Positions 38,751 through 58,714 of a stretch of DNA of 64,000 nt are shown here, in pieces. The notes below the pieces were generated by a model. The model was not told where the DNA came from, did not search any database, and saw only the letters and a program-made list of their open reading frames with translations. Made by a program: the position numbers and the translations under genes. The first letter of the stretch is position 1. Every line of letters begins with the position of its first letter. The stretch is from a virus. Location of the stretch: the IMG/VR virus record IMGVR_UViG_3300018080_008436, positions 370,998 through 434,997 of that record. One strand, given 5' to 3'.

Positions 38751-38825
38751 TGGTGCCCCTGCTGGGACTCGAACCCAGATTAGCAAGGTTAGAGCTTGCC
38801 GCTTTTGCCTTTAAGCTACAGAAGC
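38751..38825 (-). tRNA. Amber suppressor tRNA (anticodon CUA)
   Basis: Complete cloverleaf on the minus strand. The acceptor GCTTCTG/CAGGGGC has 7 bp with two G-U pairs. D-stem GCTT/AAGC, anticodon stem GCAAG/CTTGC with loop CTCTAAC, variable TAAT, T-arm CTGGG-TTCGAGT-CCCAG, discriminator A and encoded CCA. Loop positions 34-36 are C-T-A, which reads UAG. The amino acid cannot be told from the sequence. A consensus sigma70 promoter lies directly upstream, and a UAG-interrupted gene follows ~500 bases downstream. Confidence 0.9.
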
Positions 38826-44386: not shown

Positions 44387-44972
44387 AGTCGCTTCATACG
44401 TTGAGGCATTAAATGTAGCCAATATGGATGGCGAGATAAAGAAACCAGAAGTGCTTGGAGTTTTGCAATCTCTTCCATCCCCAAATCACATCAAAAGATA
44501 CTTATCAAATGAAGAAGCAAGAGTCTTGTTTGAAAGCATCCGATGGATTTGGAAAGAAACAAGTGGTAAAGATATTAGTGAGACATTTAATTTCGAGCCT
44601 GCTCCAGAATCATTGCTAGGAAATTACTGGATGCTAAGGAATGGTCTGATCTTTCATGGTATCAACCATTATGGCATCATTAAAAGAAATATGACGCTCT
44701 TTTCTAACGTCCTGAAGTTAGAGCCGTTTGTACTGCATCAGAAGCTTGCAGGCATACCACAAGACCTAATTAAGTACGTTATAGACAATGGGGGGATGAG
44801 AATCTTCGTTACGGCTGACAAAAGAGCATATTTCCAAATGAATGATCAGGTTTATGCCAATTGGGGTAGGGCCAAAGTTAAAGGACTGGACTTCGGAAAC
44901 AAAGTGGTCAAACTTGTTGACCCCACTACCCGATTTGACGGTTGGAACTCTGGAATTACCTTAAAACTCTAG
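44364..44972 (+). CDS. Unknown 202-aa protein of plus-strand island
   Basis: Overlaps the end of the CCA-enzyme gene by 23 bases. Mixed alpha/beta, with helical N-terminus and a conserved-looking core (LLGNYWMLRNGLIFHGINHYGIIKRNM). Ends in UAG that forms the palindrome CTAG with the UAG of the converging gene. If suppressed it would gain a ~115-residue serine-rich tail. No family recognised. Confidence 0.6.
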   Translation: MEDVTANEVASYVEALNVANMDGEIKKPEVLGVLQSLPSPNHIKRYLSNEEARVLFESIRWIWKETSGKDISETFNFEPAPESLLGNYWMLRNGLIFHGINHYGIIKRNMTLFSNVLKLEPFVLHQKLAGIPQDLIKYVIDNGGMRIFVTADKRAYFQMNDQVYANWGRAKVKGLDFGNKVVKLVDPTTRFDGWNSGITLKL

Positions 44973-46726
44973 TTCATAAAGAACGGGTCATCATCATCGT
45001 CGTCGTCATCAAATTCTACAGGTGGCAGATCTTCCTCAGGATGTTTTCTCTTAGGTGGCAATGGTTCGTCTTTCGTTGAAGGGCCAAACAATGATGCAAG
45101 TTCTGCTTCAAAATCTACATCATCCCATATCAACTCATCAAGATCTTCTTCTGCACCAGGAGAAAGTGGGTCTGATGGATCAACTTCTGCACCATCGATA
45201 GCATCTCCAGTACCTTCATCAATGTCACCAGCATCTTTGTCTTCTTCATCTGTTTCGGTTTCCCAGAAACCAGTTTCATCCAACTGATCTTTGAATCGAT
45301 TCAGAATTTCTTTCGCTTCTTCTTGATCACTAATAATATAACTTGATGCTTCGAAAAGCTCTTGTACTGGTCCAGCACCCATATATCCAACCAATCCTAA
45401 TCCAACGATATCTTCTGGTTTACATTGCATGAATCTTCTGAAGTTCTCAGGACCAATCTGCATTTGCATTTGCTCATTTACCAATTCATCTGATTCTTTT
45501 AGAATGGCAATCGCCTCTTCCATCTCCAAAGGACGTTGTCCTCTGCTTGCTCTAGACTCATTGTCCAATTGGTGATCAGTTGCTTTTGAGAAAATACCCT
45601 TGGTAAGTTCCTGACAAATAATAATAAAGTTCATACCTTGAGCTACAGTGTTACCTTCATCATCATTATGACTCCAACCAGTTCCTTTTTGGCCTAACTG
45701 ATCAGCCATCATCCTAACCATCTCTGGATCGATGTAATAAAAATGCTGACACATCAAATTAGAGAACTTTTCATAAAGTCCTAAGAGTTGAGGATTAATG
45801 TCATTGATCGCACCTTGGACTTCTTCCATCTCAGTTACATCAAATAATTCATTAAGTCCTGCGCCTTGAGCCAATGAATTCATGATGATGCGTTTGTTAA
45901 TTTCACCTTCAAGTTCTGGAGTTATTTCAATATCTACTTCTGGGAAGTCTTCTTCACCTGAAGGACCCATCTCTTCCATATATTTGATTTCTAACTCATC
46001 CCTATCAACATTCCATTTACGAGAGATAACGTCTTTTGCGAGGTCCATCAACTGCTCTTCATTTCCTTGTTCCAAAGCTTGGATTTCTCTAAGGAGTCCA
46101 AGAATCTGCATCATAACTTGTTGAATGTTAGTGTTTACAGGGATATCCTTCTCTTCTGCAATATTCGTAATATATTCATAGTTTGCGCGAGCTAGTTCAT
46201 CACCATAATGAGAAAGCACTGGATTTTGAGAAAGGATATTGTTTTGAGGAATATCTTGCCAGAAATTTCTTACACCTCTTTGTACTGAGGCATCGTAATC
46301 AGCGGCGGCGACCTTCTGTTCAAGAAGACGGATTTCGTAACCACTTATCTTTTTTTTTAACTCCGAAGTAATGGTCGGCAAGTTATCAGGGGATACTTGT
46401 GCGGCCAATGGAAGATCTTCTTCTGGTTCTTCAGCTTTAGGTTTTGGTTGTACGATAGGTTTAGGATTACGTGGTCTTCTTTTCCCAGGTTTTCCAGGCT
46501 TAGTCTTTTCTCCTGGTGTAGTTCTGGGTTTGGTTGTTGGAGCGGCTGGAGCAGGTCCTGATCTTTCGGTTGATGGAGCAGGTTCAGCTTCTCTTACCAT
46601 ATCTTCTGCTTGAACAACTAAATTGCCATCTTCGTCTAGCCATCCAGCTTTTTTACCAAATTCTTCCCAATCTTTTTGAGACAATTTAACGGTCTTTTTG
46701 CCATTGGCGTTTTTTATAATTTTCAT
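44969..46726 (-). CDS. Tagged virion-associated protein with GKKAGW N-terminal domain
   Basis: 585 aa. Begins MKIIKNANGKKTVKLSQKDW and EEFGKKAGWL, an N-terminal domain shared with the genes at 47756-48163 and 52171-52569. A Pro/Lys-rich linker (~55-100) ends near LPLAAQVSP, then a large helical domain (~115-470, e.g. ISGYEIRLLEQKVAAADYD) and an acidic C-terminus with a run of eight Asp. Stop is UAG. The size and layout suggest a structural or internal head protein that anchors cargo; this is inference. Confidence 0.65.
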   Translation of the reverse strand: MKIIKNANGKKTVKLSQKDWEEFGKKAGWLDEDGNLVVQAEDMVREAEPAPSTERSGPAPAAPTTKPRTTPGEKTKPGKPGKRRPRNPKPIVQPKPKAEEPEEDLPLAAQVSPDNLPTITSELKKKISGYEIRLLEQKVAAADYDASVQRGVRNFWQDIPQNNILSQNPVLSHYGDELARANYEYITNIAEEKDIPVNTNIQQVMMQILGLLREIQALEQGNEEQLMDLAKDVISRKWNVDRDELEIKYMEEMGPSGEEDFPEVDIEITPELEGEINKRIIMNSLAQGAGLNELFDVTEMEEVQGAINDINPQLLGLYEKFSNLMCQHFYYIDPEMVRMMADQLGQKGTGWSHNDDEGNTVAQGMNFIIICQELTKGIFSKATDHQLDNESRASRGQRPLEMEEAIAILKESDELVNEQMQMQIGPENFRRFMQCKPEDIVGLGLVGYMGAGPVQELFEASSYIISDQEEAKEILNRFKDQLDETGFWETETDEEDKDAGDIDEGTGDAIDGAEVDPSDPLSPGAEEDLDELIWDDVDFEAELASLFGPSTKDEPLPPKRKHPEEDLPPVEFDDDDDDDDPFFMN

Positions 46727-46788
46727 AATATCAATATCCTCTAAAAACTAATTGATGTTTAATTCCAATTAAGGTAGTAATAATCCTT

Positions 46789-47739
46789 TTATGGATTTAC
46801 TTCTAGCCCCATTCTTGCATATTCTTCTAGATTTATCGCTGGATTTGAGGCTTTGACTTTTACAAAAGTCGAATGGTCACATTCTTTCCACAAATCTTCT
46901 CTATCCTCTCCCCCTTCAAAGATTATCATATCATAATCTATGTGTGCGGGAGTCATCCACTCTCCATTATGCCAAATCTGGAAATCCACATCTGCATCTC
47001 TATATTGGTTCAACTTGTTGATATGGACTTCTGCATAAAGGAAATCTGGTGGTTTTTCAATTTTTAATGTATATTTATTATAGCCTGCTGGGACTATCCA
47101 AGGGTTTTGGAAAACAAAATACAAATCTTTTGAAACTTTTAACAAATCACCTCTTTGTTGAACCCAATTCCCCTTTTCATACCAATTCTTATTTTGAGAG
47201 AATGAAACAATTCCCCTTCTAACAACATTTTGCTTATCCTTATATGTCCCATAATATCCTGATTTAGCAATGGGACTGTAAAAAGTCAGATGACTTCCAT
47301 CGGCCTCCACTTGTCTTCGAGCGTTATTAAAGGCTCTAACTTCTTCATCTTCCTCTTCTTCAATAGGATCAGCTTCTTGAGGAGCGTTCGGATCAGCTTC
47401 TTGAGGAGCGTTCGGATCAGCTTCTTGAGGAGCGTTCGGATCTATCCCTGCCAGAAGTTGAGCATTTCGTTCTCTCTCCAATAATTCAAAAAGATCATCT
47501 GGTTCATCTATGTCTGGAATTTTCATTTTTCCATCTTTCAACGCATCGTCTATTTGTTCTGGAGTTAGAGGTTTTTTATAACCTTTTATCTTCCCTTGTT
47601 TATCAAGTACTGGTTGCCTTTCTTCTTGCGTCCAGCCTATTTCTTTTAGCCTATTCTGATATTCTTTACATTCTATATAGTCTGCTCTTTGAGCCTCTTT
47701 AAGAAAAGAATAAAATTCAAATTGCTTGTACCAACTCAT
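46789..47739 (-). CDS. Tagged unknown protein (MSWYK type) with DPNAPQEA repeats
   Basis: 316 aa, AGGAG before ATG. Starts MSWYKQFEFYSFLKEAQRAD, the W-Y variant of the shared N-terminal motif. Residues ~100-125 are three exact DPNAPQEA repeats. The C-terminal ~175 residues look like a folded beta-rich domain (GYYGTYKDKQNVVRRGIVSF, FLYAEVHINKLNQYRDADVD, IDYDMIIFEGGEDRE). Function unknown; candidate packaged cargo. Confidence 0.65.
   Translation of the reverse strand: MSWYKQFEFYSFLKEAQRADYIECKEYQNRLKEIGWTQEERQPVLDKQGKIKGYKKPLTPEQIDDALKDGKMKIPDIDEPDDLFELLERERNAQLLAGIDPNAPQEADPNAPQEADPNAPQEADPIEEEEDEEVRAFNNARRQVEADGSHLTFYSPIAKSGYYGTYKDKQNVVRRGIVSFSQNKNWYEKGNWVQQRGDLLKVSKDLYFVFQNPWIVPAGYNKYTLKIEKPPDFLYAEVHINKLNQYRDADVDFQIWHNGEWMTPAHIDYDMIIFEGGEDREDLWKECDHSTFVKVKASNPAINLEEYARMGLEVNP
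47366..47437. repeat. 24-base tandem repeat (x3), coding
   Basis: Three perfect copies of a 24-base unit encoding DPNAPQEA, in frame, inside the 316-aa gene. No spacers, so not a CRISPR array. Confidence 0.9.
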
Positions 47740-47755
47740 AGAATCTCCTAAAAAC

Positions 47756-48163
47756 TTATAACATCATTAAATCACTAAAATCTGTATCTTCTCTTTCAGG
47801 TGGGTTACAAAGTTCCTCAAGCTGTTCTACAGAAAGGCTTGGCTTAATATTGTCAAGTCCTCTGAACTCAACAACTTGATCGGTCCCCTTGTTTTTAAGA
47901 ACTATGGCGTAAAGATCTCCACTAATGAAGTAAACGGATATATCATTTCTAGCAAGATATTCTCTGGCATAAGATTCTGACTGGACACTCCAACCACCTT
48001 CTTGACCCAGTTCCATTAGTCTTTTTACACCTGTAACATCTTCTTTCGTAAAATTGAAGTTTCTGTTTGCAGTTTTTAGCCAACCAGATTTCTGACCCAT
48101 GACCAACCACTCTTTTTTAGACATTTGAACTGTTGTCTTTCCAGCTTTTCTAACTAGTTTCAT
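47756..48163 (-). CDS. Tagged unknown protein with GQKSGW N-terminal domain
   Basis: 135 aa, GGAG before ATG. MKLVRKAGKTTVQMSKKEW then GQKSGWLKTAN is the domain shared with 44969-46726 and 52171-52569. A helical segment (VTGVKRLMELGQEGGWSVQ) and a beta hairpin (ISVYFISGDLYAIVLKNKG) follow. Putative packaged cargo; biochemical role unknown. Confidence 0.6.
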   Translation of the reverse strand: MKLVRKAGKTTVQMSKKEWLVMGQKSGWLKTANRNFNFTKEDVTGVKRLMELGQEGGWSVQSESYAREYLARNDISVYFISGDLYAIVLKNKGTDQVVEFRGLDNIKPSLSVEQLEELCNPPEREDTDFSDLMML

Positions 48164-48166
48164 TAT

Positions 48167-48445
48167 TTACTCCTCAACATTAGCAACATCTTTTTCAGAT
48201 GGTGCTTGGCCATGTTCCAGATGCATTTTCATTGCATCACGTAGCTTGAATTTATCTGTATATCTAACAGTAATTACTCCACCTGGATAAATGAGGTCCC
48301 AGCAGATTTCACCATCACAATCTTTATTCCTAATCATCCCTCCAGCATCACGCCATCTGTCGATTAGTTCTTCCATTTCTCTTCTAAAAACAAAGACATC
48401 ATTCTCTCTTTGTAAAAATGGCATCGCTATTTTAATAATCTTCAT
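48167..48445 (-). CDS. Tagged small protein, unknown
   Basis: 92 aa from ATG 48445 (MKIIKIAMPFL); the TTG codon one position earlier is unlikely to be the start. Helix, then GEICWDLIYPGGVITVRYTD, an alpha/beta mini-domain. Bicistronic with the next tagged gene (stop and Shine-Dalgarno overlap). Confidence 0.6.
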   Translation of the reverse strand: MKIIKIAMPFLQRENDVFVFRREMEELIDRWRDAGGMIRNKDCDGEICWDLIYPGGVITVRYTDKFKLRDAMKMHLEHGQAPSEKDVANVEE

Positions 48446-48513
48446 CAAATATCCCCAAATGAATTGCTTATTCTAATTTATTCTTCAATATCAACCATCT
48501 AACCTTCATTAAC

Positions 48514-48542
48514 ACAAAAAAAGCCCCTTGATTTCAAGGGGC
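48514..48542 (-). terminator. Terminator after DUF5662-like gene
   Basis: GCCCCTTGA/TCAAGGGGC stem with a 2-base centre, T7 tract on the minus strand. Confidence 0.85.
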
Positions 48543-48622
48543 AGAAATAATGCTCTGTCATTCAGGGAAGCAAAAATAATGCCTTATTCCCAAACAGCAT
48601 CCATAAGTTCATATATTTATTT

Positions 48623-49198
48623 TTATTTATTCTCGCAGACATCTATTAACTCATAGATTAAATCTTTTTGATCATCTGTGAATTTCCATCGGACATTAAC
48701 ATTTTTGTCTGCCCAGTCTTTTGCGCTATTACCTTTCTCTTGCCCCATACTGACCCAATCAGCCACCATTTCAGCTATGTCAATGTCCCCCATCTTAGTG
48801 CCATCAATCATTTTTTCGGGTGGTTTGTCTCTATCATTTCTGTTGATGAGATCGACCGTTTCAGATGAATGAAACTCTGGATGATGCCTATTACTTTTTA
48901 CATGATGCTCAGTAGCTTTATTCATCTTTTCATCCATCCCATCTGGCGGTTCCCAGTCTACACCATCATCTTTGCATTTATAACTCCATGTTACATAAAG
49001 ATATGGTTCATACTCTGGATCTTCAAATTTACTATCGTCATGATGACTGGCCTGTTCGATAAGGTCTTCGAATTTGTCATCGTAGTCAGCAATCTTTTTG
49101 CAGTATTTCTGAACTCGCTTGATATGTTCTCTAGTTCTTTTTTCAAAGAACTCTTCTATTTCTTTCTTCTCACTTTTCGCTGTCCTGATTAATTTCAT
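48623..49198 (-). CDS. DUF5662-like protein with N-terminal tag
   Basis: 191 aa from ATG 49198 (GGAGG upstream); the longer 49225 start overlaps the promoter box. After MKLIRTAKSEKK, HD-like motifs follow: HIKRVQKYCKKI, ASHHDDSKFEDPE and ATEHHVKSNRHHPEFH. That His/Asp pattern is typical of the phage/bacterial DUF5662 family, probably metal-binding and HD-hydrolase-like. The substrate is unknown. The tag precedes the domain without disturbing it, as expected for an added targeting sequence. Confidence 0.7.
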   Translation of the reverse strand: MKLIRTAKSEKKEIEEFFEKRTREHIKRVQKYCKKIADYDDKFEDLIEQASHHDDSKFEDPEYEPYLYVTWSYKCKDDGVDWEPPDGMDEKMNKATEHHVKSNRHHPEFHSSETVDLINRNDRDKPPEKMIDGTKMGDIDIAEMVADWVSMGQEKGNSAKDWADKNVNVRWKFTDDQKDLIYELIDVCENK

Positions 49199-49215
49199 TG
49201 TAATACCTCCATGAT

Positions 49216-49225
49216 TATTATACAA
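49216..49225 (-). promoter_or_regulatory. Candidate promoter box (TTGTATAATA)
   Basis: 18 bases upstream of the 49198 start and immediately after a terminator. A TTGTCT lies 17 bases upstream, inside the terminator stem, so a weak -35 is possible here. Confidence 0.5.
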
Positions 49226-49252
49226 AAAACCCCTTGTAGAGACAAGGGGTTT
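49224..49252 (-). terminator. Terminator after EF-hand gene
   Basis: AACCCCTTGT/ACAAGGGGTT stem, AGAG loop on the plus strand, T6 on the minus strand. Confidence 0.85.
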
Positions 49253-49269
49253 AGATGTACACAGAAAGC

Positions 49270-49584
49270 TTATTTTTCTGGTTTGGGTTGTGGAGGTTGG
49301 GGTCTGCCTTTTCCATGGCCTCTCATGCCTTTTCCAGGGCCATTACCATGTCTTCCCCTCATGCCTTCACGATGACGCTTCATCCTTTCTTTCATCATAG
49401 CAGTTAACTCTGAACGATCTAACTTACCATCTTTGTCAACGTCAAAGTTTTCCATGACTCTGTCCAATACCTTTTCCAAACACTTCTCTGGACTTGGACG
49501 TTCAGGGCGTTCGGGTCTCTCGGTTTCTTGGGCTGAAAGAGTGCAGGCAAAAACTAGGGCGAGTAATACGATTAATGCTTTCAT
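49270..49584 (-). CDS. Secreted EF-hand calcium-binding protein
   Basis: 104 aa from ATG 49584 with AAGGAGATC upstream; upstream in-frame codons belong to the intergenic leader. N-terminal signal peptide (MKALIVLLALVFACTLSA then QETE); VFAC might also act as a weak lipobox. Residues ~47-60 form a canonical EF loop DVDKDGKLDRSE. The C-terminus is Gly/Arg/His/Lys and Pro-rich (HGNGPGKGMRGHGKG). Unlike its neighbours it lacks the tag and would be exported by the host Sec system. It resembles small bacterial secreted EF-hand proteins, so capture from the host is likely. Confidence 0.8.
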   Translation of the reverse strand: MKALIVLLALVFACTLSAQETERPERPERPSPEKCLEKVLDRVMENFDVDKDGKLDRSELTAMMKERMKRHREGMRGRHGNGPGKGMRGHGKGRPQPPQPKPEK

Positions 49585-49710
49585 AATAAGATCTCCTTTA
49601 TTAAGCAATGAATTTGTTAACGCAAGTGCTGTGCCAAATGTTTTATTGGGTAAATGGTCACTATAGTGCGCAAATATTAGAATTTTGGTAAAAATAGTGC
49701 GCAAAATATG

Positions 49711-50040
49711 CTATCTAAACTCATTTCCCCATTTGTCGAGGTTTTCGTATGGTATTGTAAACAAATAATCTTCAACTTTGCTTGAACGTGTCCCAAAAGA
49801 GACATCATAATATATCCCATCACATTTGACTAAAGCGTGGTTAACTCCATCCTTTCTACAAACAACAACATCTGCTTTGTATCCCGCTTCTCTTAATGCT
49901 TTGCAATACCTTCCACACAGATTACTGCAATCATTGGCATTGGGAATCTTCTTTTCTTTATTAAGTGACCAGAAAATATCTGGTAATGGTATTTTTTGAA
50001 AATTTAGTAATTTGTATAAGAACGATTTGAACCATTTCAT
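49711..50040 (-). CDS. Transglutaminase/papain-like cysteine protein
   Basis: 109 aa from ATG 50040 (GTG 50046 possible). MKWFKSFLYK start is a variant of the shared tag. Core: NDCSNLCGRYCKALREAGY (candidate catalytic Cys at the helix start), then NHALVKCDGIYYDVS (His and Asp-type positions), the Cys...His...Asp order of transglutaminase-like folds. Very short for the family, so minimal domain. Stop is UAG. Peptidase, transferase or amidase activity cannot be distinguished. Confidence 0.6.
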   Translation of the reverse strand: MKWFKSFLYKLLNFQKIPLPDIFWSLNKEKKIPNANDCSNLCGRYCKALREAGYKADVVVCRKDGVNHALVKCDGIYYDVSFGTRSSKVEDYLFTIPYENLDKWGNEFR

Positions 50041-50046
50041 GATCAC

Positions 50047-50463
50047 TTAACATTCGTATGATGTCCTCTTTTCATACTCTGGGCTTCTAGAATAGCTCGT
50101 TATAAATACATCAGGGTAATTAGCACCGAATTGATCTGCCGTAATGTCAATTATTACCTTATTGTTTAATTCAACCCAGCAATGGTAACTCTTCATACAG
50201 TTCCCGCAAACTTTTTTGGCATCGAACCCTCTTTTATTAAGTTCTGCGCACAATTCTTCGCTCATCATTTCACAGAATGGAGGAGATAGGAATTTTCCCC
50301 CGCTAAGAATTTCGTCTAACCGTTCTCTTTTTTCATCATCGTTGTCATAATCTTCATTAACTTCTTCAAGTAGCTCTGAAACATATTCATCCATCATTCT
50401 TTCTCTGATCTCTGAAGCGATCTCAAAAATAATCCCCATTCTTGCTACTTTAATGATTTTCAT
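50047..50463 (-). CDS. Tagged transglutaminase-like cysteine protein
   Basis: 138 aa from ATG 50463 (MKIIKVARM). C-terminal domain FCEMMSEELCAELNKRGF, then YHCWVELNNKVIIDITADQF. Cys, His and Asp in the order and spacing of transglutaminase-like proteins whose hallmark is H-x-W-V-E-[LI] followed by IDITADQF. Adjacent to a second, diverged member (49711-50040). Helical linker between tag and domain. Likely a cysteine protease or transferase effector. Confidence 0.7.
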   Translation of the reverse strand: MKIIKVARMGIIFEIASEIRERMMDEYVSELLEEVNEDYDNDDEKRERLDEILSGGKFLSPPFCEMMSEELCAELNKRGFDAKKVCGNCMKSYHCWVELNNKVIIDITADQFGANYPDVFITSYSRSPEYEKRTSYEC

Positions 50464-50464
50464 A

Positions 50465-50746
50465 TTAACCAAGAGTATCTTGAACTCTGTCCTCTCGTAA
50501 CCAAAATTCTCCACTTCCACCAACAGGTTTCAATTTATATTGTGTCCTGCCGAACATTTTACGTTTACTAAGAACTTCAACAGGAAAGAAAACAGAAGTT
50601 GACCCTCTTCCAATTTCATAAAACTGAGCATATTTTATTTGTCCAACTTCGCTCTCATCCAGTTCCATCTCTTCTGGCACTTTTCTTTCTGGCTCTTCCT
50701 TCTGTGGCATAGGAGGAATTACTTGAGCCGCCTTCATTATTTTCAT
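50465..50746 (-). CDS. Tagged small protein, unknown
   Basis: 93 aa, start overlaps the rhodanese stop (TAATG). MKIMKAAQVIPPMPQ matches the tag with A-Q at the proposed cleavage position. Acidic linker, then a small beta domain (GSTSVFFPVEVLSKRKMFGR). Unknown function. Confidence 0.6.
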   Translation of the reverse strand: MKIMKAAQVIPPMPQKEEPERKVPEEMELDESEVGQIKYAQFYEIGRGSTSVFFPVEVLSKRKMFGRTQYKLKPVGGSGEFWLREDRVQDTLG

Positions 50747-51171
50747 TATCCATCTCCTTTTATTATCTCGAATCCATTATCTAACCAACCTGCAACTGGA
50801 ACTCCTTCAACAGGAGAGATGCCCATGCCAAATTTCAAAGAGACGACATCATATCCAAGCATTCTCAAAAGAACCAAAGCTTGACTGGAAGTATGACCAA
50901 CATAACAAACAAGAAGAATCTTTTTGTCTTTAGGTAATTTATCCAGGTTCTCTTTTTCTAATAAATCTAGCCAGAAAATGTTCTCTGCTCCTTCGATATG
51001 CCCTTCAGCAAAGTCTTCGGGCTTTCTTATGTCTAAGATGAAGAAGTTATCCAAGCCTTTTTCCTTCAACTCAACAGGAGTGATGTAGTTCCAAGTATCG
51101 TCTGTTTTGTCAATGAACTCTTTCAGCTTTTCCGTGAAAGTTAGATCGCATGATATTTTTATGAGCTTCAT
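50746..51171 (-). CDS. Tagged rhodanese-domain protein
   Basis: 141 aa. Tag MKLIKISCDL, then a single rhodanese domain: ITPVELKEKG, FFILDIRKPEDFAEGHIEGA (the DxR...GHI-x-GA signature) and active-site loop LLVCYVGHTSSQ with the catalytic Cys at ~95. Moves sulfane sulfur or acts as a Cys-based phosphatase-like domain; the partner is unknown. First gene behind a TATAATA box. Rhodaneses are rare in phage virion clusters, which supports a cargo role. Confidence 0.8.
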   Translation of the reverse strand: MKLIKISCDLTFTEKLKEFIDKTDDTWNYITPVELKEKGLDNFFILDIRKPEDFAEGHIEGAENIFWLDLLEKENLDKLPKDKKILLVCYVGHTSSQALVLLRMLGYDVVSLKFGMGISPVEGVPVAGWLDNGFEIIKGDG

Positions 51172-51201
51172 TCACCCTTCCTTAATTCATAAGTATAGTC
51201 T

Positions 51202-51211
51202 TATTATACTT
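51202..51211 (-). promoter_or_regulatory. Candidate promoter box (AAGTATAATA)
   Basis: 31 bases upstream of the rhodanese start, just downstream of the composite terminator. No -35. Confidence 0.45.
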
Positions 51212-51235
51212 CTAAATAAGGTGTTAGTATCCCTA

Positions 51236-51318
51236 CACAAAAATACCCCCTGAGGCGAACCTAAGCAAGTCCATCGCAAGCGATATACTCGCTTTGAGAC
51301 GAATCCCAAGGGGCAAAT
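51236..51318 (-). terminator. Composite terminator / structured RNA with two UUCG hairpins
   Basis: Minus strand: outer CCCC/GGGG arms enclose TTGGGA-TTCG-TCTCAA, then AGCGA-GTATA-TCGCT, then CTTAGG-TTCG-CCTCAG, then a TATTTTTG tail. The left part copies the terminator at 52094 and the right part that at 53223, so it looks like a fusion of two terminator types around a new middle hairpin. May still terminate; may also be a small structured RNA. Confidence 0.55.
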
Positions 51319-51324
51319 ACTAAG

Positions 51325-51678
51325 TTACCTGTTGGGTTTTATGACTATTACATCAAAAACTCCACTATTTTGATCATTAGCTTCATCTAATGAATCTATG
51401 TCAGGGGACATTCGCTCTACGGAATCTATGTGTCGCTCATCAGGTGTTATTTCCTCTAAGGAATCGACATACTGCTCATCAAACTCTTCTAAACTATCTG
51501 TAACTTTCATGACAACTTGGCGATTTTCTATTTCATCCCAAATGTCACTAAGATCGTTATGACTTTCTACGAAACCTAAGCTTCCAACTCTCATTTGGGT
51601 ATTAGTATCAGTATTGTGTATGTAAATTACCCCAGTTTCATAAACCCTCAGTTCACAATTCCTAATGATTATTTCCAC
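51325..51678 (-). CDS. Unknown 117-aa acidic protein
   Basis: GTG start at 51678 with AGGAG upstream. Starts MEIIIRNCEL, only loosely like the tag. Beta-rich first half (ELRVYETGVIYIHN), then acidic repeats built on DSLEE/DSVER/DSLDE. No family recognised. Confidence 0.6.
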   Translation of the reverse strand: MEIIIRNCELRVYETGVIYIHNTDTNTQMRVGSLGFVESHNDLSDIWDEIENRQVVMKVTDSLEEFDEQYVDSLEEITPDERHIDSVERMSPDIDSLDEANDQNSGVFDVIVIKPNR

Positions 51679-51708
51679 TTTTGGCTCCTAGTTTATTACA
51701 GTAATCCT

Positions 51709-51960
51709 TTATTCACCTTCTCTGTACCTTCTTCTTTCCAAACATCTATTGTAATTGTCTCGATAATTTAACTCTATGTCAGGATTTGGCAACAATCTAA
51801 GATTGACACTAATCTGGGTTATAATATCCTCTATGCTATCCCCAATTAGTACTTGCTTACCTTGTTCAACATTGCACGCAATATAATCTTCCACCAAATT
51901 TTCCTCTATCTCGCCAAGAACCTGAAATCCATTAAAAATAGTTACTAGCGTCTTCTTCAT
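51709..51960 (-). CDS. Unknown 83-aa protein
   Basis: AGAGGT before ATG and a CTGTATAATG box 34 bases upstream. Alpha/beta (LVTIFNGFQVLGEIEEN, IGDSIEDIITQISVNLRLL). Untagged. No family recognised. Confidence 0.6.
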   Translation of the reverse strand: MKKTLVTIFNGFQVLGEIEENLVEDYIACNVEQGKQVLIGDSIEDIITQISVNLRLLPNPDIELNYRDNYNRCLERRRYREGE

Positions 51961-51993
51961 GATTTAACCTCTTTATGCTACTTACCATAAGGA

Positions 51994-52003
51994 CATTATA
52001 CAG
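51994..52003 (-). promoter_or_regulatory. Candidate promoter box (CTGTATAATG)
   Basis: 34 bases upstream of the 51960 start and downstream of the 52094 terminator. No -35. Confidence 0.45.
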
Positions 52004-52093
52004 ATAACCTTGATTCATTTTTCTCTTGTAAAAAGCAACATTTTTCCACCTGGACTCTTACTATCAGAGATTCTGGTTTTCAAGCAAAATCGA

Positions 52094-52133
52094 CAAAAAA
52101 AATGCCCCTTGGGACGAATCCCAAGGGGCAAAT
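52094..52133 (-). terminator. Terminator with UUCG loop
   Basis: Perfect 12-bp stem TGCCCCTTGGGA/TCCCAAGGGGCA; the loop reads TTCG on the minus strand, followed by T8. Flank resembles that of the 53223 terminator. Confidence 0.9.
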
Positions 52134-52170
52134 ATCTTTTACGAAATATCTACAGAGTAGGTGTAAATAA

Positions 52171-52569
52171 TTAGCTGTCTTGAATTCCTTCTCTTGCTTT
52201 TTGGAGTTTGTCCATTAGCATTTGGTGTTCTTCAGGAGTAGGTTCCTCTGGAACTATGTCTTCCATTTCGTCATGCTCAAACAAATCCCAAAGCCCTTGC
52301 CTTTTTAATTGCTCTTCTATTATAGCCGCACGGAATTTATTGCATTTACCTTCGAAATAATCATCTACTTCAGCCAAATCAAGTGGTTGGTTTATAGCAT
52401 CTTGGAAAATTTTTCTGAACCTGGCTAATACAGCTTCTGTACCTCCATCCCAATCTCCTTCCAAATCGTTTGCTTTTTTCATCCACCCAGCCTTCTTCCC
52501 CATATCAGTCCACTCTTTGCGAGTCATCTTAATCCTAGTTTTTCCACCAGCAGTTTTAACTATTTTCAT
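52171..52569 (-). CDS. Tagged unknown protein with GKKAGW N-terminal domain
   Basis: 132 aa, GGAGAG before ATG. MKIVKTAGGKTRIKMTRKEW then GKKAGWMKKAN, third copy of the shared N-terminal domain. The remaining ~95 residues are helical (AVLARFRKIFQDAINQPLDLA, AAIIEEQLKRQGLWDLFEHD) and acidic. Function unknown. Confidence 0.65.
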   Translation of the reverse strand: MKIVKTAGGKTRIKMTRKEWTDMGKKAGWMKKANDLEGDWDGGTEAVLARFRKIFQDAINQPLDLAEVDDYFEGKCNKFRAAIIEEQLKRQGLWDLFEHDEMEDIVPEEPTPEEHQMLMDKLQKAREGIQDS

Positions 52570-52648
52570 TTTAATCTCTCCATTAAGGTCTTAATTCTAA
52601 TTTATTCAAAATCTTTTCTTTTGATCCTTTAATCAGCAGTAATTGTTA

Positions 52649-53176
52649 TTAAGCCTTTGCCCAAGCCAAGCCTACCCCATTTACACCTAAAGCATTTTTA
52701 CATGCTTCTATCGTTGTACCTTTAGTTATTACATTATCAACAAAATAAACATTCTTGTTGTCTAAATCCATAACGTCTGCATCATCTCTGACAATCATAT
52801 TGTGCTCTTCAACCGTGTAATTAGGAAGATTTTGCTTTCTCCTTTGATGAGATGGTTCTATACTAGAAGACCGACCCAATGGATCATATATCTCAGATCC
52901 AGTTATTTTAGCAATTGCCTCGCATAAAAGCATGTTTGACCCCCTATCCCCTGATGATGATGGAACTGGTACTAAGAGGCTATTAGATGCAACATATTTC
53001 GCCATAGTATCAGCCGCTATCTTAATGGCATCTGAATTTTTGTTCTTTATTTCGTAAGATATCTTTCTAACAAAAGCTTCTTGCTGTGATAGTTCTCTTC
53101 TTCTAGGAGAAATATATTGATAAATGGCTATATTTTTGCCATCATTTAAAAATTGAGCTTTTTTATACCAGTTCAT
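52649..53176 (-). CDS. Tagged phosphoribosyltransferase-fold protein
   Basis: 175 aa. MNWYKKAQFLND is the W-Y tag variant. Then a type I PRTase: SLLVPVPSSSGDRGSNMLLCEAI (PPi-loop region) and VYFVDNVITKGTTIEACKNAL (PRPP-binding motif, D-N in place of the usual acidic pair). Closest in style to ComF-like amidophosphoribosyltransferase proteins. Substrate base unknown; the Asn may lower activity. An enzyme between capsid genes with the tag fits packaged cargo. Confidence 0.75.
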   Translation of the reverse strand: MNWYKKAQFLNDGKNIAIYQYISPRRRELSQQEAFVRKISYEIKNKNSDAIKIAADTMAKYVASNSLLVPVPSSSGDRGSNMLLCEAIAKITGSEIYDPLGRSSSIEPSHQRRKQNLPNYTVEEHNMIVRDDADVMDLDNKNVYFVDNVITKGTTIEACKNALGVNGVGLAWAKA

Positions 53177-53222
53177 AACAATATTAATTCAAAAATCTGT
53201 TCTTCTGACCCTTTGTAAACAC

Positions 53223-53256
53223 AAAAATATCCCCTGAGGCGAACCTCAGGGGATAA
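53223..53256 (-). terminator. Terminator after major capsid gene, UUCG loop
   Basis: 12-bp stem TATCCCCTGAGG/CCTCAGGGGATA; loop TTCG and T5 on the minus strand. Confidence 0.9.
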
Positions 53257-53286
53257 ATACTTTCTACGAGATATCTAAGCTTTCGC

Positions 53287-54150
53287 TTAGCTACCAGCGG
53301 TAACTGTGACCTTGGCTACTGCGTAGGTATTGATGATTACAATACCAACTTCCTCATAAATTACCCAACCGAGGCGGAGCTTCTTTGGATCGTCTGCTGG
53401 GAGGACGGTGATATCCTGACGAATCGGGAATGCACCAACGTACTCAGCAGGAGCGAGCAAGAAGACGGTATCGGTAGGCATCTTTGAAGATACGTGAATA
53501 TCAGCAGTAAAGAGATGTCCGAACAAACCAGTTGTAAGAACTTCTTTCTGTGTTGCTTCATCATAGACAGTCTTACCAAATCCACGAATGTCAGCGTAAC
53601 GAAGAGCATGCATAACAAGCTTACCTACTGTGAGGTCGTGCTGTTCGATGGTTGCGAAAGCTTGGTTCAAGGCGTTAAGGGTAAGAGCACCACCAGTTGA
53701 AACAACGGTATGTGCGGCATCAATTGCGGCGGCGATAGCGTTGAAGATGTTAAGATCTTCTTCCTTCTGAATCGCTTCTTTAGCTTTGATCTGAGCACGG
53801 TCTACAATGTAGAATCTACGAGCTTTAATCTCACTCAAGCGAATAGTAGGATTGGTTGCAATCTCGAACGTAGGAACGAGAATTTCTTCACCTTCGGTAA
53901 TACCATCAGGTACAGCGCCACGACGAGGAATAACCTGGGCGGTCTGGCGAACGTCTTTCTCGTAACGTGCATAAGCGCCCTGAGGAAGCTCATCCACCAT
54001 GAGAAGTTTACGTCCAACTGCTTGATATTCCAATGCTCTACGAATTGGCTCGACCATGGCCTGAGCCAATGCTACTCTACCTTCAGGTGTCTCAAGCGCC
54101 TGAGCGATAAGAGCTTCTCTTTCTGCATTAACAGATCTTTTATTAATCAT
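53287..54150 (-). CDS. Major capsid protein (HK97-like fold)
   Basis: 287 aa, AGGAG before ATG. N-terminal helix (REALIAQALETPEGRVALAQAM), extended E-loop-like region with VPRRGAVPDGITEGEEILVPTFEI, then ARRFYIVDRAQIKAKEAIQKEEDLN spine helix and a P-domain/A-domain layout ending DITVLPADDPKKLRLGWVIYEEVGIVIIN. Composition is balanced and codons richer in GC than the neighbours, consistent with high expression. Flanked by decoration gene and strong terminator. Small for the family but within range. Confidence 0.75.
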   Translation of the reverse strand: MINKRSVNAEREALIAQALETPEGRVALAQAMVEPIRRALEYQAVGRKLLMVDELPQGAYARYEKDVRQTAQVIPRRGAVPDGITEGEEILVPTFEIATNPTIRLSEIKARRFYIVDRAQIKAKEAIQKEEDLNIFNAIAAAIDAAHTVVSTGGALTLNALNQAFATIEQHDLTVGKLVMHALRYADIRGFGKTVYDEATQKEVLTTGLFGHLFTADIHVSSKMPTDTVFLLAPAEYVGAFPIRQDITVLPADDPKKLRLGWVIYEEVGIVIINTYAVAKVTVTAGS

Positions 54151-54220
54151 TTTGTTTCTCTCCTAATTAGTTGTTCTATAGGGGGTAATAGCCTATAAAA
54201 TAAACCTTTTTTACTATACC

Positions 54221-54742
54221 TTATACAAGAAGCTTGTATTCGATATAAGTGTTAGAGTTATCGCCAGCAAGGGCCTGATCGCCATTGATGTCGATGCCAG
54301 GTACGCCACTTGGGTATGAGCCAGCGGCACGAGTCAAACGAGCAACAGGAGTTCCAGTGGTCAAACCACCTTCATCTGTAGTGTCGAGTACACCAAGGGC
54401 ATTACCATAAAGCAATGCGCCAGGATTGGCGGATGATACGTTTGAAGCGAACTGGTCGGTTGCAAACTCACCACCTGAGTGATAGACAGTCATTTTACCT
54501 GAAGCTTTGGTTTCGTCAAAATAATCGGAAACCCTGTTCTGCCATCCTGCTGAGATGCCAGGCATTGCTGAAGCGCTAGTTGACTTGGTGTCACCAGCTA
54601 CACCGTAAACGGCGGCGTTGGTGCTTGCAAGTACTACTTCGCCAGATGTATTAAGAGAGACAAGCTGTCCTTCTTTAATAGTTTCGCCAGAGGCGACATC
54701 CTGTTCAGCGGCTACTACATGAAATTTTTCTACAAGAGCCAT
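54221..54742 (-). CDS. Putative head decoration/capsid-associated protein
   Basis: 173 aa, AAGGAG before ATG. Small beta protein rich in Gly/Ala/Ser/Thr, beginning VVAAEQDVASGETIKEGQLVSL and VYGVAGDT, like capsid-stabilising proteins (gpD-type region DUF2190 style). Immediately upstream of the capsid gene and GC-rich in the same way, so likely highly expressed. A ~215-base leader precedes it. Confidence 0.6.
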   Translation of the reverse strand: MALVEKFHVVAAEQDVASGETIKEGQLVSLNTSGEVVLASTNAAVYGVAGDTKSTSASAMPGISAGWQNRVSDYFDETKASGKMTVYHSGGEFATDQFASNVSSANPGALLYGNALGVLDTTDEGGLTTGTPVARLTRAAGSYPSGVPGIDINGDQALAGDNSNTYIEYKLLV

Positions 54743-54964
54743 TTTTTGTTTCTCCTTTTAGAGTTAATTTTTTGTCAATTTTCATTGACGGTTTTTTAAC
54801 CAATTTGGTAAACGAAAACCAGCTTAACGCTACGATCTTTCTTCATTGATTTACTGAAAAAGTTGCCGTCATCTTATTAATCAAAACTGCAAACATTGAA
54901 TTACTTACCAACTTGTTATATCCCTTTGTTCTATATTAATAAGGTGATTTCCTGCTTACTATAC
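54743..54964 (-). other. Long leader upstream of the decoration/capsid genes
   Basis: About 220 bases without an ORF between the 54965 terminator and the decoration start. It has TTGTATAGTA (54957-54966) at its upstream end as a candidate promoter box. No other clear element seen. Confidence 0.4.
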
Positions 54965-55011
54965 AAAAAAACCACGAAATATTGCTGATAAAAGCCATAT
55001 TTCGTGGTTTT
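54965..55011 (-). terminator. Terminator before the capsid unit
   Basis: AACCACGAAATAT/ATATTTCGTGGTT stem with a 14-base loop and a T7 tract on the minus strand. Confidence 0.85.
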
Positions 55012-55031
55012 GGCACAAAAATGATTGTTGT

Positions 55032-55265
55032 TTATTCTTTTAGAGACTTTCTTCTTTGCAATTCTTTTTTCATAGCATCTCTGGTTTTATCTAACTCTTC
55101 TAAGTCATATCCCCAATCGATACCATAATTTTCCTGTTCAATAATTTGATTATCATAATAAAGCCAAGCCAACTCATTTTCTAATTCTTCTGTTGGAATT
55201 TCTTCTATTGGTTCTTTAGATATAATGTATTTATGTTCTTTGTTAGACACTCTTATTAATTTCAT
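55032..55265 (-). CDS. Tagged small protein, unknown
   Basis: 77 aa, ATGA overlap with the preceding gene. MKLIRVSNKEH tag, then acidic helices (EEIPTEELENELAWLYYDNQ... EELDKTRDAMKKELQRRK). Function unknown. Confidence 0.6.
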   Translation of the reverse strand: MKLIRVSNKEHKYIISKEPIEEIPTEELENELAWLYYDNQIIEQENYGIDWGYDLEELDKTRDAMKKELQRRKSLKE

Positions 55266-55513
55266 AATTTCCCCAATATTTCATCTAATCTTGTTGAAAT
55301 CTCGACATCTGATAATTGTCTGAATGGAGCCTTAAATACAGTCCCAGACGGCAATGTAACCTGCACCTTGTCTCCACCTCCCAACACCTCTCTAAACTCA
55401 TGATAAGTTAATCTATTGGGCTTGGCTCTTAATCCCTTGACATATACGACATTGTTGTTTGAGTCTACCCAAACAATCGATGGAATTTTAGAAGATATCT
55501 TGATTATTTTCAT
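55262..55513 (-). CDS. Tagged small protein, unknown
   Basis: 83 aa. MKIIKISSKIPS tag, followed by a small beta domain (IVWVDSNNNVVYVKG, GDKVQVTLPSGTVF) and a C-terminal helix. First gene after the scaffold terminator. Function unknown. Confidence 0.6.
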   Translation of the reverse strand: MKIIKISSKIPSIVWVDSNNNVVYVKGLRAKPNRLTYHEFREVLGGGDKVQVTLPSGTVFKAPFRQLSDVEISTRLDEILGKL

Positions 55514-55621: not shown

Positions 55622-58600
55622 TTAACGTTGGTCGTTGTCAATCAAGTTGTCATTTAACAACTTGGAACCAATCGTAAACGCTCCAGCGATTTTGTCCTGG
55701 AAGCTAGGCTCCTGGGCAGGCTGTGATTGAATTACGATAGCTGGAAGACCAGTTCCAGCAGTTTTAACTTGCTGTTCAGTAGAAGCAGTTTTAACGGCCT
55801 TAACTGGGAACATAGTTTCCGCAACTGAAGCAATTTTATCAACTTCAAACTGAGCTAATGCAGTAACAACATTATCAAATGTGCTCTTATCAGAAGCAAT
55901 TCTGTTGTTAGCGGCTAACCATGAAGCAGTACGAAGAGCTTCCTCTTTACGTGCTTCCTTGATTCTAGCAAGTTGTTCTTCTCTTTTCTGTTGTACCTGT
56001 TTGAGATACTTATCATTGATGCCAGGCATATCTGACTGAGTTTCCTTCTCAACGCCCATATAAGCGTTATCGATAGGTACATCAGGCTTAGGTGCGTTAA
56101 CGTCGATGTTATCTGGTCCTTCCTGTCCCATAGTAGCTTTTGCTCTAGGAACGTCTGGATTTGCCATCTTTACATCGATGTTGTCAGCGCCTTCATGACC
56201 CAAAGAAGCATCGGCTCTAGGAACTCCAGCTTCAACATCACCCTCAACGGTGTCAACTTCTTTCATCTTTTTCGCTAATGCAAGCTGTCTCTGAGCCTCT
56301 TTGAGGTTTTTCTCAGCTTCAGCAATTACAGTACCTTTAATCTCATTATTGATTGCAGGCATATCTGATTGAGTAGCTTTCTCAATTCCCATGTAGGAAC
56401 TATCAACAGCTACGTCTGGCAGACCAGCAGGTGGATTAATGTTATCTGCGCCTTCATGGCCCATGGTAGCATTAGATCTAGGAACCTGAGGTTTGGCCAT
56501 AGGAACGTCAATATTATCTGCTCCTTCATTCATCATAGTTGCCTTACTACGAGGTACTCCAGCTTCAACGTCTTTCTCAATAGTTTTGATGAGCTTAGGC
56601 TTACCTGCCAACTTAATGTTGGACTCAGCGCCAGAGCGTCTTACTCTTGAGGAATTCATTGCCAAAGCCTCTGCAAGTGCGTCGGTATCAAATGTTTCCA
56701 TATCTTCTCCTTCTGGAACTTCTTCAGCTTCAAATGCAACGTCCTCTGCGATGTCCTCTTCCAAGGCTTCATCACCAGTATTTTCAACAACTTCGAGGTT
56801 GTCTCCAGTGATGGTTACAGATTCAACTGCGACTTCTTCTGGTTCTTCAATAATCTCATCAACCTCTACATCGACTGAGTCGAGTGGTTCGAGATCATCT
56901 CCGATTTCAACTTCTTCCAAGATAGCCTGAGCTTTCTTGGCTAAGTTTTCTTCTTTCTGAATGAACAATTCGTTCATTGTAGCGAGATCGTATTGGCTAA
57001 GTGCAATCTTTCCTTCTTTTGCTTCATCAGCAAAAGCTTGGACGTAAATGTTATCAGATTCTTCTTTAGCGAACTTCTTCTTAATGCAGTTGCAAATTGA
57101 AGTTGCTTGAACAACATCATGTCCTTTGCTCTTTTGATCTTCAATACATTCATCCATTGGATCTACTTGCATTAAAGTGTCAGCCAATTTTTTCATTTGA
57201 CGGACTTTGGTAAAACCAAGTCTCTTCAGTTCTTTGCATACGCATTCAGCCAATGGCTTATCTTTGCAAGGACCGAATCTAGCTACAGTGTTTCCACCAT
57301 AAGTTCTAGCAATTCTTTCAACGCAGTTAGCAGTTGGGAACGTATCGGCGTTAGCCTGAGCAGTCTTCAACATTCCAACAACCTTAAGCTTAGAAGCGAA
57401 CTTCCTTGCTTCTTCTTTGCATTCTGGGCAACTATTGTCAGGAGAAAGATCCCATTCAACTCTTAACAAGCCGTTTGAAGGATTCTTACTACTAACAATG
57501 AGGTTCTTCTCGAAAGAAGTTCCGCATTGTCCGCATTCGCATTTGGTGCGACCATCGCCGCTTGCGATGACATCACATTTCTTATTTCCGCAAGCTGGGC
57601 AGACATCGCCATGGGCCTCTCTGTTAGCGGCAATACGAACAATAGAATCTTTATCAATTCTAGTTTGAGCGGCAACTGGAAGTGCTGGCATTTCTTCAGG
57701 CTCTTCAGGGCCTTCAACGTCTTCCATACCTTCTTCGCCAACGCTTTTGGTAGGTTTGATGATTCTAAATTCAATTTCTTTCTTAATGAGAGCTTCGTAT
57801 TCGGCTCCGCAATTCTGGCAGTTACCGATAATTCCACCGTCATCTTCTTTAGTTACATCAACATCAGATGAACCACACTCTGGGCAAATGCTCCAAGGAG
57901 CTTGCTTTTCGCCAACAGTTGGGATCTCATCCTCTAACTCATCCTCATTACCAGTGGTGAGAGCTTGAAGAGCAGGATCTTCTCCCATTGGAGGAGCGTC
58001 AAGACCTTCCTCAGGAGCGCCTGGAGCGGCGACTTCGCCTGCGGCCCCTGGCATTCCGCCACCCATTGGTGACTGAGCAGTTCTTTTCATCTTCTTATTA
58101 TTATAGGCAACCTGATTAAGGTTTTCCATTTCAATATCAGCGTCAAGTCCGTCCTCAATGCCTTCTCCTACGAGATCGCCTTCAGGAACGATTTCTTCTT
58201 CAATTGGTGCTACTTCTTCGCCAATCGGAATTTCAACTGACTCTTCGCCAGCATCAGTCTGGACAGCGATTTGAATGGTATTACCATCAATAGTAACATT
58301 AGTGATAGAAGCAAGCTTCATATTTTCAGTTGCTAAAGCGCCTTTAGCAAACTTAACGATATCTTTCTTGAAAGTGGCAGAAGTCTTTTGAGAACCAAGT
58401 TCTTCGAAATCGGTTTCAATTACGATGTCTGCTCCATCAAGTTTTTCAGGATTAAGAATTTCTTCCTGAGCCTGGACTCGCTTTCTTGATTCCAAAGAAG
58501 CTAGAATTTCTTCTCTTTCAGCATCTCTTTTAGCCTTTTCGTTTTTAACGACAGCTTTGGTTGATGCTTCTTTAGTTTCTTTCTTCTCTTCTTTTTCTTC

Positions 58601-58714
58601 GCATTCTTCATCCTCTTCGTCACACTCTTCTTCTCCAGCGACAGCTTGCTTCAGAGCATTTCTAAGTTCGTCCTTAACGTTAACTTTTGCTACTGTAGAG
58701 GCTTCAGCAGTTTT
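55622..58714 (-). CDS. Prohead core/scaffold protein with zinc ribbons and EGADNID repeats (no start codon of its own)
   Basis: The frame opens right after a TGA (58717-58715) and is continuous for ~1029 codons to TAA 55622. It has no ATG, GTG or TTG near its 5' end (first TTG at 58495). It is in the -1 frame to the protease at an A5 run, so probably made by frameshift. Sequence: acidic N-terminal part (EEECDEEDEECEEKEEKK), two zinc ribbons (ICPECGSSDVD...CQNCG; VCPACGNKKCD...CGQCG), an SCPEC and further Cys-rich segments, then duplicated modules built on VPRxxATMGxEGADNID and YMGxEKxTQSDMPxIN, and a helical C-terminus. Probably the internal scaffold removed by the protease. Confidence 0.65.
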   Translation of the reverse strand, partial: KTAEASTVAKVNVKDELRNALKQAVAGEEECDEEDEECEEKEEKKETKEASTKAVVKNEKAKRDAEREEILASLESRKRVQAQEEILNPEKLDGADIVIETDFEELGSQKTSATFKKDIVKFAKGALATENMKLASITNVTIDGNTIQIAVQTDAGEESVEIPIGEEVAPIEEEIVPEGDLVGEGIEDGLDADIEMENLNQVAYNNKKMKRTAQSPMGGGMPGAAGEVAAPGAPEEGLDAPPMGEDPALQALTTGNEDELEDEIPTVGEKQAPWSICPECGSSDVDVTKEDDGGIIGNCQNCGAEYEALIKKEIEFRIIKPTKSVGEEGMEDVEGPEEPEEMPALPVAAQTRIDKDSIVRIAANREAHGDVCPACGNKKCDVIASGDGRTKCECGQCGTSFEKNLIVSSKNPSNGLLRVEWDLSPDNSCPECKEEARKFASKLKVVGMLKTAQANADTFPTANCVERIARTYGGNTVARFGPCKDKPLAECVCKELKRLGFTKVRQMKKLADTLMQVDPMDECIEDQKSKGHDVVQATSICNCIKKKFAKEESDNIYVQAFADEAKEGKIALSQYDLATMNELFIQKEENLAKKAQAILEEVEIGDDLEPLDSVDVEVDEIIEEPEEVAVESVTITGDNLEVVENTGDEALEEDIAEDVAFEAEEVPEGEDMETFDTDALAEALAMNSSRVRRSGAESNIKLAGKPKLIKTIEKDVEAGVPRSKATMMNEGADNIDVPMAKPQVPRSNATMGHEGADNINPPAGLPDVAVDSSYMGIEKATQSDMPAINNEIKGTVIAEAEKNLKEAQRQLALAKKMKEVDTVEGDVEAGVPRADASLGHEGADNIDVKMANPDVPRAKATMGQEGPDNIDVNAPKPDVPIDNAYMGVEKETQSDMPGINDKYLKQVQQKREEQLARIKEARKEEALRTASWLAANNRIASDKSTFDNVVTALAQFEVDKIASVAETMFPVKAVKTASTEQQVKTAGTGLPAIVIQSQPAQEPSFQDKIAGAFTIGSKLLNDNLIDNDQR

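Follow-up and report, generated by a model that had tools for sequence, protein, structure and literature searches.

Many otherwise different proteins encoded in the window analysed here, a 64,000-nucleotide stretch (positions 370998-434997) of the 476,248-bp virus record IMGVR_UViG_3300018080_008436, begin with a shared seven-residue start, referred to below as the tag. This start is likely to be a short, removable capsid-targeting propeptide, carried by many enzymes, for a prohead protease that cuts at K-x-A. Since the tag matches the apparent cutting site of the protease, the tagged proteins probably end up inside the head, lose their tag there and travel on to the next host. The first-pass annotation had proposed such a logic by analogy with phage T4. 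Sequences and structural models favour it through the shared tag, its likeness to the [KR]xA sites of the protease and scaffold, a T4 control, a gp21-like protease fold and the modularity of the tag across phages, and from these we infer the cut itself, the capsid location, packaging and injection. In the proposed mechanism, the tag would present a hydrophobic-hydrophobic-[KR]-x-A(S) site of the same type that fills the protease-scaffold polyprotein, and head assembly would bring the tagged proteins into the core that contains the protease. The prohead protease would then cut after A, which would fragment the scaffold and remove the tag, and the mature enzymes would remain inside the head and enter the next host with the DNA.

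All 14 starts named in the first-pass annotation are present, all on the minus strand, and 12 of them fit the regular expression used for the tag, M[KRNS][ILMVWF][IVMLYF][KR]x[AS]; the other two, MKWFKSF (50040) and MSWYKQF (47739), end in F. When applied to the starts predicted genome-wide by a simple gene caller (n = 637 complete starts), the expression matched 15, compared with one of 2,936 internal Met residues (p = 7e-11). A short peptide at the extreme N-terminus is thus found on several unrelated proteins, as in the capsid-targeting sequence (CTS) of T4 type. Twelve of the 15 matching starts belong to the 30 genes of a head region at 407-430 kb of the record (hypergeometric p = 4e-15, for a region picked after the hits were known). 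The other three tagged genes are distant (genome positions 1-720, 84941-88843 and 445927-448311), so the nearness of all tagged genes to the capsid genes, as claimed earlier, is limited to the window and does not extend genome-wide.

The closest cultured relative of the window phage is Bacillus phage G. Phage G-like membership is indicated by a homologous major capsid protein (Table 1) and a homologous protease, the latter showing 43% identity to phage G gp19 over the protease domain (residues 66-215); a megablast search of the region against annotated phages gave no match. Relatives were represented by the best 80 of 152 related loci, taken from viral contigs. The tag expression matched 68 of their 1,158 starts compared with 10 of 9,275 internal Met, and at least one tag was detected in 29 of the 80 loci. 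One locus (L013) represents the phage of the window itself (99.986% identity over 7 kb) and contributes 10 of the 68 tagged starts, as well as one of the 24 polyproteins described below. Relatives partly use other spellings, such as MNWYKKA and MKIYRLA, and a single spelling class is used in seven of the 14 loci with at least two tags (for example, five MNWY starts in L010, three M[KR]IYRLA in L003 and three MKII in L058). Phage G has a tag of its own, MKRLxKK[AS], at 14 of 667 starts and none of 2,825 internal Met. The window expression matched none of the 667 phage G starts, and the phage G expression none of the 637 starts of the window phage. Because the phage G expression and its looser version were both composed after its starts had been inspected, p-values for the phage G tag are only descriptive.

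After removal of redundancy, the window family provided 87 tagged proteins. The alignment used for the Pfam scan (A1) contains 76 proteins, namely 71 of these 87, two doubtful window proteins and one each from L106, L109 and L113, and shows a clear consensus at the start only. The 16 proteins left out include the 585-aa window protein, the polyproteins L043 and L053, and a chance start, L033:12031; tag composition was counted on 84 of the 87, omitting the last three. The phage G set (A2) comprises 20 proteins and includes forms looser than the phage G expression.

In 29 related loci, located via the active-site motif, protease and scaffold were found to be fused in one protein of 1,696-2,277 aa. 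In the window the two are separated (58495-58690) by a one-base difference from L013, which is intact, as are other relatives; the split is either an assembly error or a variant. Motif statistics were calculated for 24 non-redundant polyproteins, five near-duplicates having been dropped. K-x-A ranked first by z among pairs with a one-residue gap (788 vs. 376.5 expected) and R-x-A second (262 vs. 131.4), whereas 208 neighbouring proteins showed no excess of K-x-A (343 vs. 330.2) or R-x-A (243 vs. 231.8). The reversed pair A-x-K was not raised in the polyproteins (355), and the strongest pair at other spacings was CxxC, of zinc-ribbon type. Around the K-x-A sites, M/L/W/I are favoured two residues before K, L/V/I one before, T/V/L/I between K and A, and Y/S/Q after A. 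The tag is built like these sites, with a hydrophobic-[KR]-x-A core, and is followed by Q or S in 33 of 84 cases; judged by sequence, it appears to correspond to the motif in which the protease and scaffold of the same phage are enriched. Among 302 window-phage proteins (at least 150 aa), the scaffold ranked first in [KR]xA excess (p = 0.0009) and the protease second (p = 0.002), and the protease gp19 ranked second among 328 phage G proteins (p = 0.007). K-x-A was also the top one-gap pair in the window protease and scaffold (28 vs. 13.5), in phage G gp19-21 together (16 vs. 6.1), in the isolated phage Tunturi_5 (19 vs. 7.5) and in the genome LR745208 (25 vs. 12.6, for a set that included one apparently unrelated 286-aa protein). 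A weight matrix was trained on the polyprotein sites, excluding the first 15 residues of each polyprotein and with the score of S at the A position raised by hand to -1, and was applied to other genes at a threshold of 7. The position with most matches was residue 5 both in the window phage (11 genes) and among the relatives (35), and phage G peaked one residue later, at residue 6 (10). Most other positions counted 0-4; the relatives were also raised at residue 3 and residues 8-15.

As a positive control, the T4 proteins gp67, gp68, gp21 and gp22 gave I-x-E first and L-x-E second among 125, and L/I-x-E is given in passages of PMC9026906 as the known cleavage motif of T4 gp21. [KR]xA was found directly ahead of the protease domain in all 29 polyproteins (27% of windows by chance) and within the first 11 residues in 26 of them (19% of windows by chance), the other three starting with K-x-S or K-R-G. 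Both results bear on the possibility that hydrophobic-[KR]-x-A is a docking motif for core assembly without cleavage, in which case the proteins would be packaged with the tag kept. Scaffold and tag do share the motif, the data show no cut, and targeting and processing of the T4 CTS use partly different residues (passages of PMC9026906). However, what the same method recovered in T4 is the cleavage motif, and a site before the protease domain in every polyprotein is what self-release would predict. Docking without a cut is therefore regarded as unlikely in comparison with a removable propeptide.

The protease domain was modelled from 24 sequences (predicted local distance difference test, pLDDT, 86). 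The model aligned with T4 gp21 (5jbl; Z 9.5, root-mean-square deviation 2.6, 123 residues) and with the varicella-zoster virus (VZV) protease (1vzv; Z 8.9), while rows for MCE domains reached up to 6.3; Foldseek gave the human cytomegalovirus protease as a weak match (E 0.05). Two candidate catalytic residues of the modelled domain, H71 and S122, do not vary in any of the 27 rows. These model comparisons point to a T4 gp21/herpes assemblin-like fold. As a separate observation, the protease domain sequences of L034 and L036 diverge after the catalytic-type SMG, which looks like an intein beside the active site.

The tag appears to be modular with respect to the proteins behind it. DUF5662 of the window and that of L016 share 59% identity, yet start with MKLIRTA and MSWYKTA, respectively; a third DUF5662 protein starts with MKIIKTAKY, and the homologue in phage LysYB1 starts without a tag. 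In the model of the window protein, in which the helix drawn begins at residue 4, pLDDT is below 50 at residues 1-5 and averages 53 over the first ten, compared with block means of 93-97 for residues 11-70. The tag is thus dispensable for the cargo fold in DUF5662, the family for which this was assessed, and the idea that it belongs to the enzyme itself was rejected for this family on the three tags or none and the low pLDDT at residues 1-5. A tRNA-nucleotidyltransferase-like protein, grouped by a GGW-RD stretch noticed by eye, carries the tag in L064 and L065 but not in the window (42380-44386) or L010.

The 76 tagged proteins matched 31 Pfam families, 25 of them listed, including PolyA_pol, DUF5662, ART-PolyVal, HD, 2H ligase/Acb1, cREC, AAA_33, rhodanese, UvrD, DUF5661, GNAT and SLT. 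Of the identities suggested by the first-pass annotation, DUF5662 and rhodanese were upheld by Pfam; for the putative phosphoribosyltransferase (PRTase), nothing in Pfam matched up to E 0.1, and YunG was the sole match, below threshold, for the transglutaminase-like protein. A search of phages for homologues of the tagged rhodanese gave two partial matches. Two tagged 2H proteins exceed the Acb1 cut-off of 27, with scores of 31.7 and 27.9, but score higher as general 2'-5' RNA ligase-like (36). The 20 tagged or loosely tagged phage G proteins include nucleoside deoxyribosyltransferase-like, ferritin, ParB, SLOG, GNAT and PARP proteins, among others. Tagged phage G products include gp17, gp38, gp53, gp123, gp126, gp141, gp251, gp284, gp336, gp345-347, gp351, gp508, gp610 and gp675. 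In this phage, the loosely defined tag was found on five of six proteins with an ADP-ribosyltransferase (ART)-like motif near the start compared with 18 of 661 others, our own version of the motif having missed gp610 (tagged, HGTD). Passages of PMC9503650 credit phage G with at least 10 ARTs and predict many phage ARTs and some 2H proteins to be head-packaged, on the basis of fusions to head proteins and gene neighbourhoods; cRec and SLOG are placed in the same network, and these passages do not call them packaged.

Such cargo bears on a second alternative, namely that the tag commits proteins to the assembly core only, where they would serve head building or sizing or be degraded, without delivery to the host. 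Several tagged proteins are small, lack a known fold and are encoded among the head genes, as this would suggest, but the recognisable ones are mostly enzymes, and other phages have been predicted to inject members of the ART and 2H families (passages of PMC9503650). A role confined to the core is considered slightly less probable still than docking, and delivery into the next host remains the preferred reading.

A feature at the DNA or translation level, such as an initiation enhancer or a recombination hotspot copied between genes, could account for a tag placed exactly at the start codon, and neighbouring small genes could swap starts. However, the 12 window tags use varied codons for conserved residues, internal protease and scaffold sites suffice to train a tag-like profile, and phage G spells its tag differently. 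This explanation was rejected because of the codon variation among the window tags, and appears very improbable. A chance or generic basic-hydrophobic N-terminus is the least credible explanation and was rejected on the internal-Met and cross-genome controls and the clustering given above: Lys-rich N-termini are common, and MKI is the most frequent start triplet of the window phage (24 starts), but MNWYKKA was start-like in 23 of 27 viral matches compared with four of 36 in a bacterial and archaeal genome collection. The viral matches, from contigs scanned as DNA, fall in 18 contigs; of the 17 tested, 11 have a capsid gene, and the remaining contig, from which L120 comes, is in the capsid list as L069. 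Many of the bacterial and archaeal matches lie inside long open reading frames with WYKKAAxxG-like repeats, which we take to be Sel1-like repeats.

Several observations weigh against a removable head-loading tag. The aligner's Z of 9.5 for the protease is good but not extreme, since Z 7-8 is common even for models that lack true relatives. The tag ends in S in 17 of 84 cases, and K-x-S is not raised in the polyproteins (273 vs. 289 expected); moreover, K or N follows the tag in 27 of 84 cases, at odds with the scaffold preference for Y/S/Q. In phage G, the scaffold gp21 ranks only twelfth, with a slight [KR]xA excess (8 vs. 4.1, p = 0.055). The search of related phages proposed earlier did recover a recurring tag, but 51 of the 80 related loci show none by the window expression, spelling classes are mixed in the other seven of the 14 multi-tag loci, and the phage G tags are scattered over its genome. 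MKIIKTA, which was set aside as too unspecific for a lineage marker, is start-like in 12 of 51 matches, in nine contigs, of which three have a capsid gene, one of them weakly.

The features of the window discussed above are collected in Table 1.

Table 1. Head genes, predicted protease sites and tagged starts in the window (window coordinates).
Feature	Position	Strand	Remarks
Prohead (head maturation) protease half of polyprotein	58690..61191	-	phrog_18299 head maturation protease, 1.9e-19; T4 gp21-like fold (model)
Protease domain, invariant His and Ser	60439-61122	-	
Tag-like N-terminal site MLIKVA of protease itself	61174..61191	-	[KR]xA early in 26/29 polyproteins
Predicted release site MIKTA|S just ahead of protease domain	61108..61125	-	[KR]xA in 29/29 polyproteins
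Scaffold half of polyprotein	55622..58495	-	[KR]xA 24 vs. 11.5 expected
Major capsid protein	53287..54150	-	phrog_2522, 1.8e-72; 55% identity to phage G gp27
Probable head decoration protein	54221..54742	-	phrog_19421, weak, E 0.01
Tag MKIIKIS	55493..55513	-	83-aa protein, 55262-55513
Tag MKLIRVS	55245..55265	-	77-aa protein, 55032-55265
Tag MNWYKKA	53156..53176	-	175-aa protein, 52649-53176; PRTase in first-pass annotation; no Pfam match
Tag MKIVKTA	52549..52569	-	132-aa protein, 52171-52569; opens 30-aa extended module
Tag MKLIKIS	51151..51171	-	Rhodanese, 50746-51171; Pfam Rhodanese 2.3e-13
Tag MKIMKAA	50726..50746	-	93-aa protein, 50465-50746
Tag MKIIKVA	50443..50463	-	138-aa protein, 50047-50463; weak YunG match
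Doubtful tag MKWFKSF	50020..50040	-	110-aa protein, 49711-50040; position 7 without A/S
Tag MKLIRTA	49178..49198	-	DUF5662 protein, 48623-49198; PF18907 1e-27; low-confidence tail in model
Tag MKIIKIA	48425..48445	-	92-aa protein, 48167-48445
Tag MKLVRKA	48143..48163	-	135-aa protein, 47756-48163; extended module
Doubtful tag MSWYKQF	47719..47739	-	316-aa protein, 46789-47739; position 7 without A/S
Tag MKIIKNA	46706..46726	-	585-aa protein, 44969-46726; extended module
Tag MRLIRTA	37002..37022	-	336-aa protein, 36012-37022

Longer starts were also observed. An extended module of about 30 residues, MKIVKxAxGKxTIKxSxKEWxxxGKKAGW, has a second KxA-type site near residue 27 and occurs in 10 loci on nine viral contigs, six of which are in the capsid list (window 52471-52569, 48068-48163 and 46628-46726, minus strand; L003:12051 and L004:10950). 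LR745208.1 (L252; loci L254-L264) has a 30-residue start, M-TLRSKLIRLAHxNPALRPxLLPLLKEAG, at 11 places in its 485-kb genome, with [KR]xA at both ends and eight different proteins read behind it; this may be the loading module of that lineage. A short NPWAVC...EKxERCVKKVKKQ-like module follows the tag in several phages (window 36012-37022, minus strand; L030:1494, L034:1814 and L246). Tag-like sites near the C-terminus were noticed in window 61193-63997 (minus strand) and L010:1814-3586 (IIKLS...LLRLAKK and LIKIA...RKYA), perhaps marking a C-terminal processing region. Amid the tagged genes, an untagged small protein (49270-49584, minus strand) starts like a signal peptide and contains an EF-hand-like DxDxDG motif. 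A tRNA with a CTA anticodon (38751-38825, minus strand; labelled Pyl by ARAGORN) is a possible amber-reading tRNA, and several window genes stop at TAG (44969, 58690 and 49711).

A broader reading, to which we would give an even chance, is that huge phages related to phage G, which form a broad and largely uncultured superfamily, use the tag as an interchangeable loading code: gaining a tag would turn a protein into head cargo, with the two-site, 30-residue version of LR745208 on at least eight proteins. The code would carry a changing set of host-directed and counter-defence enzymes acting before phage gene expression, which on this reading includes ARTs, 2H/Acb1-like phosphoesterases, cREC, SLOG, rhodanese and DUF5662. 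If so, listing the tagged starts in the sequence of a huge phage would reveal much of its injected protein set, many short unannotated proteins would gain a functional context, and the general prediction of ART and 2H packaging (PMC9503650) would become a per-gene test in cultured phage G. Very large capsids would also seem to have a short loading signal whose specificity is new.

Several known systems resemble this one in part. In the giant phages SPN3US and phiKZ, many internal proteins are present and some are trimmed by a gp21-like protease, with Ser preferred after the cut in SPN3US (passages of PMC10052503). On the other hand, their protease cuts after Glu (passages of PMC9026906), and the N-terminal propeptides of SPN3US have 20-254 residues, most of them more than 110, compared with the shared seven-residue start described here (passages of PMC10052503). 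In phage P1, an N-terminal signal of more than 9 and fewer than 30 residues loads the defence-against-restriction protein DarB and can load a reporter; however, DarB is one large protein, and no shared tag on many small enzymes is mentioned in these passages of PMC9024508. The virion effectors of PMC9503650 likewise include ART and 2H enzymes predicted to be packaged, but that prediction comes from fusions and neighbourhoods, and the passages concerned mention no short N-terminal tag.

The T4 system, with its CTS on IPI-IPIII and Alt and its protease gp21, also carries a short N-terminal peptide on otherwise different internal proteins, and the packaged ADP-ribosyltransferase Alt has a 7-residue propeptide (passages of PMC9026906). 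The protease model is of similar fold to T4 gp21, and core proteins rich in the cleavage motif, which is a predicted one in the window phage, are common to both. Herpesvirus assemblin and scaffold offer a further parallel through the fold match to the VZV protease. The herpesvirus maturational protease is made fused to the scaffold and cuts between Ala and Ser, while we know of no multi-enzyme tagged cargo in herpesviruses. Three tag spellings used as literature search words gave no match, and in wider searches the tag was unreported in the titles and abstract openings among the matches listed.

Unlike T4, the relatives have a fused protease and scaffold, the window phage and phage G each have at least a dozen tagged proteins, and the tag is spelled differently from phage to phage. 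The site is K/R-x-A in the window phage compared with L/I-x-E in T4; the system thus differs from the known T4 kind by its predicted protease specificity and, because the L/I-x-E site is absent, is not classed with the homologues of the T4 CTS. Its targeting and trimming would follow a T4-like logic, with K/R-x-A specificity, a fused protease-scaffold and many enzyme cargoes.

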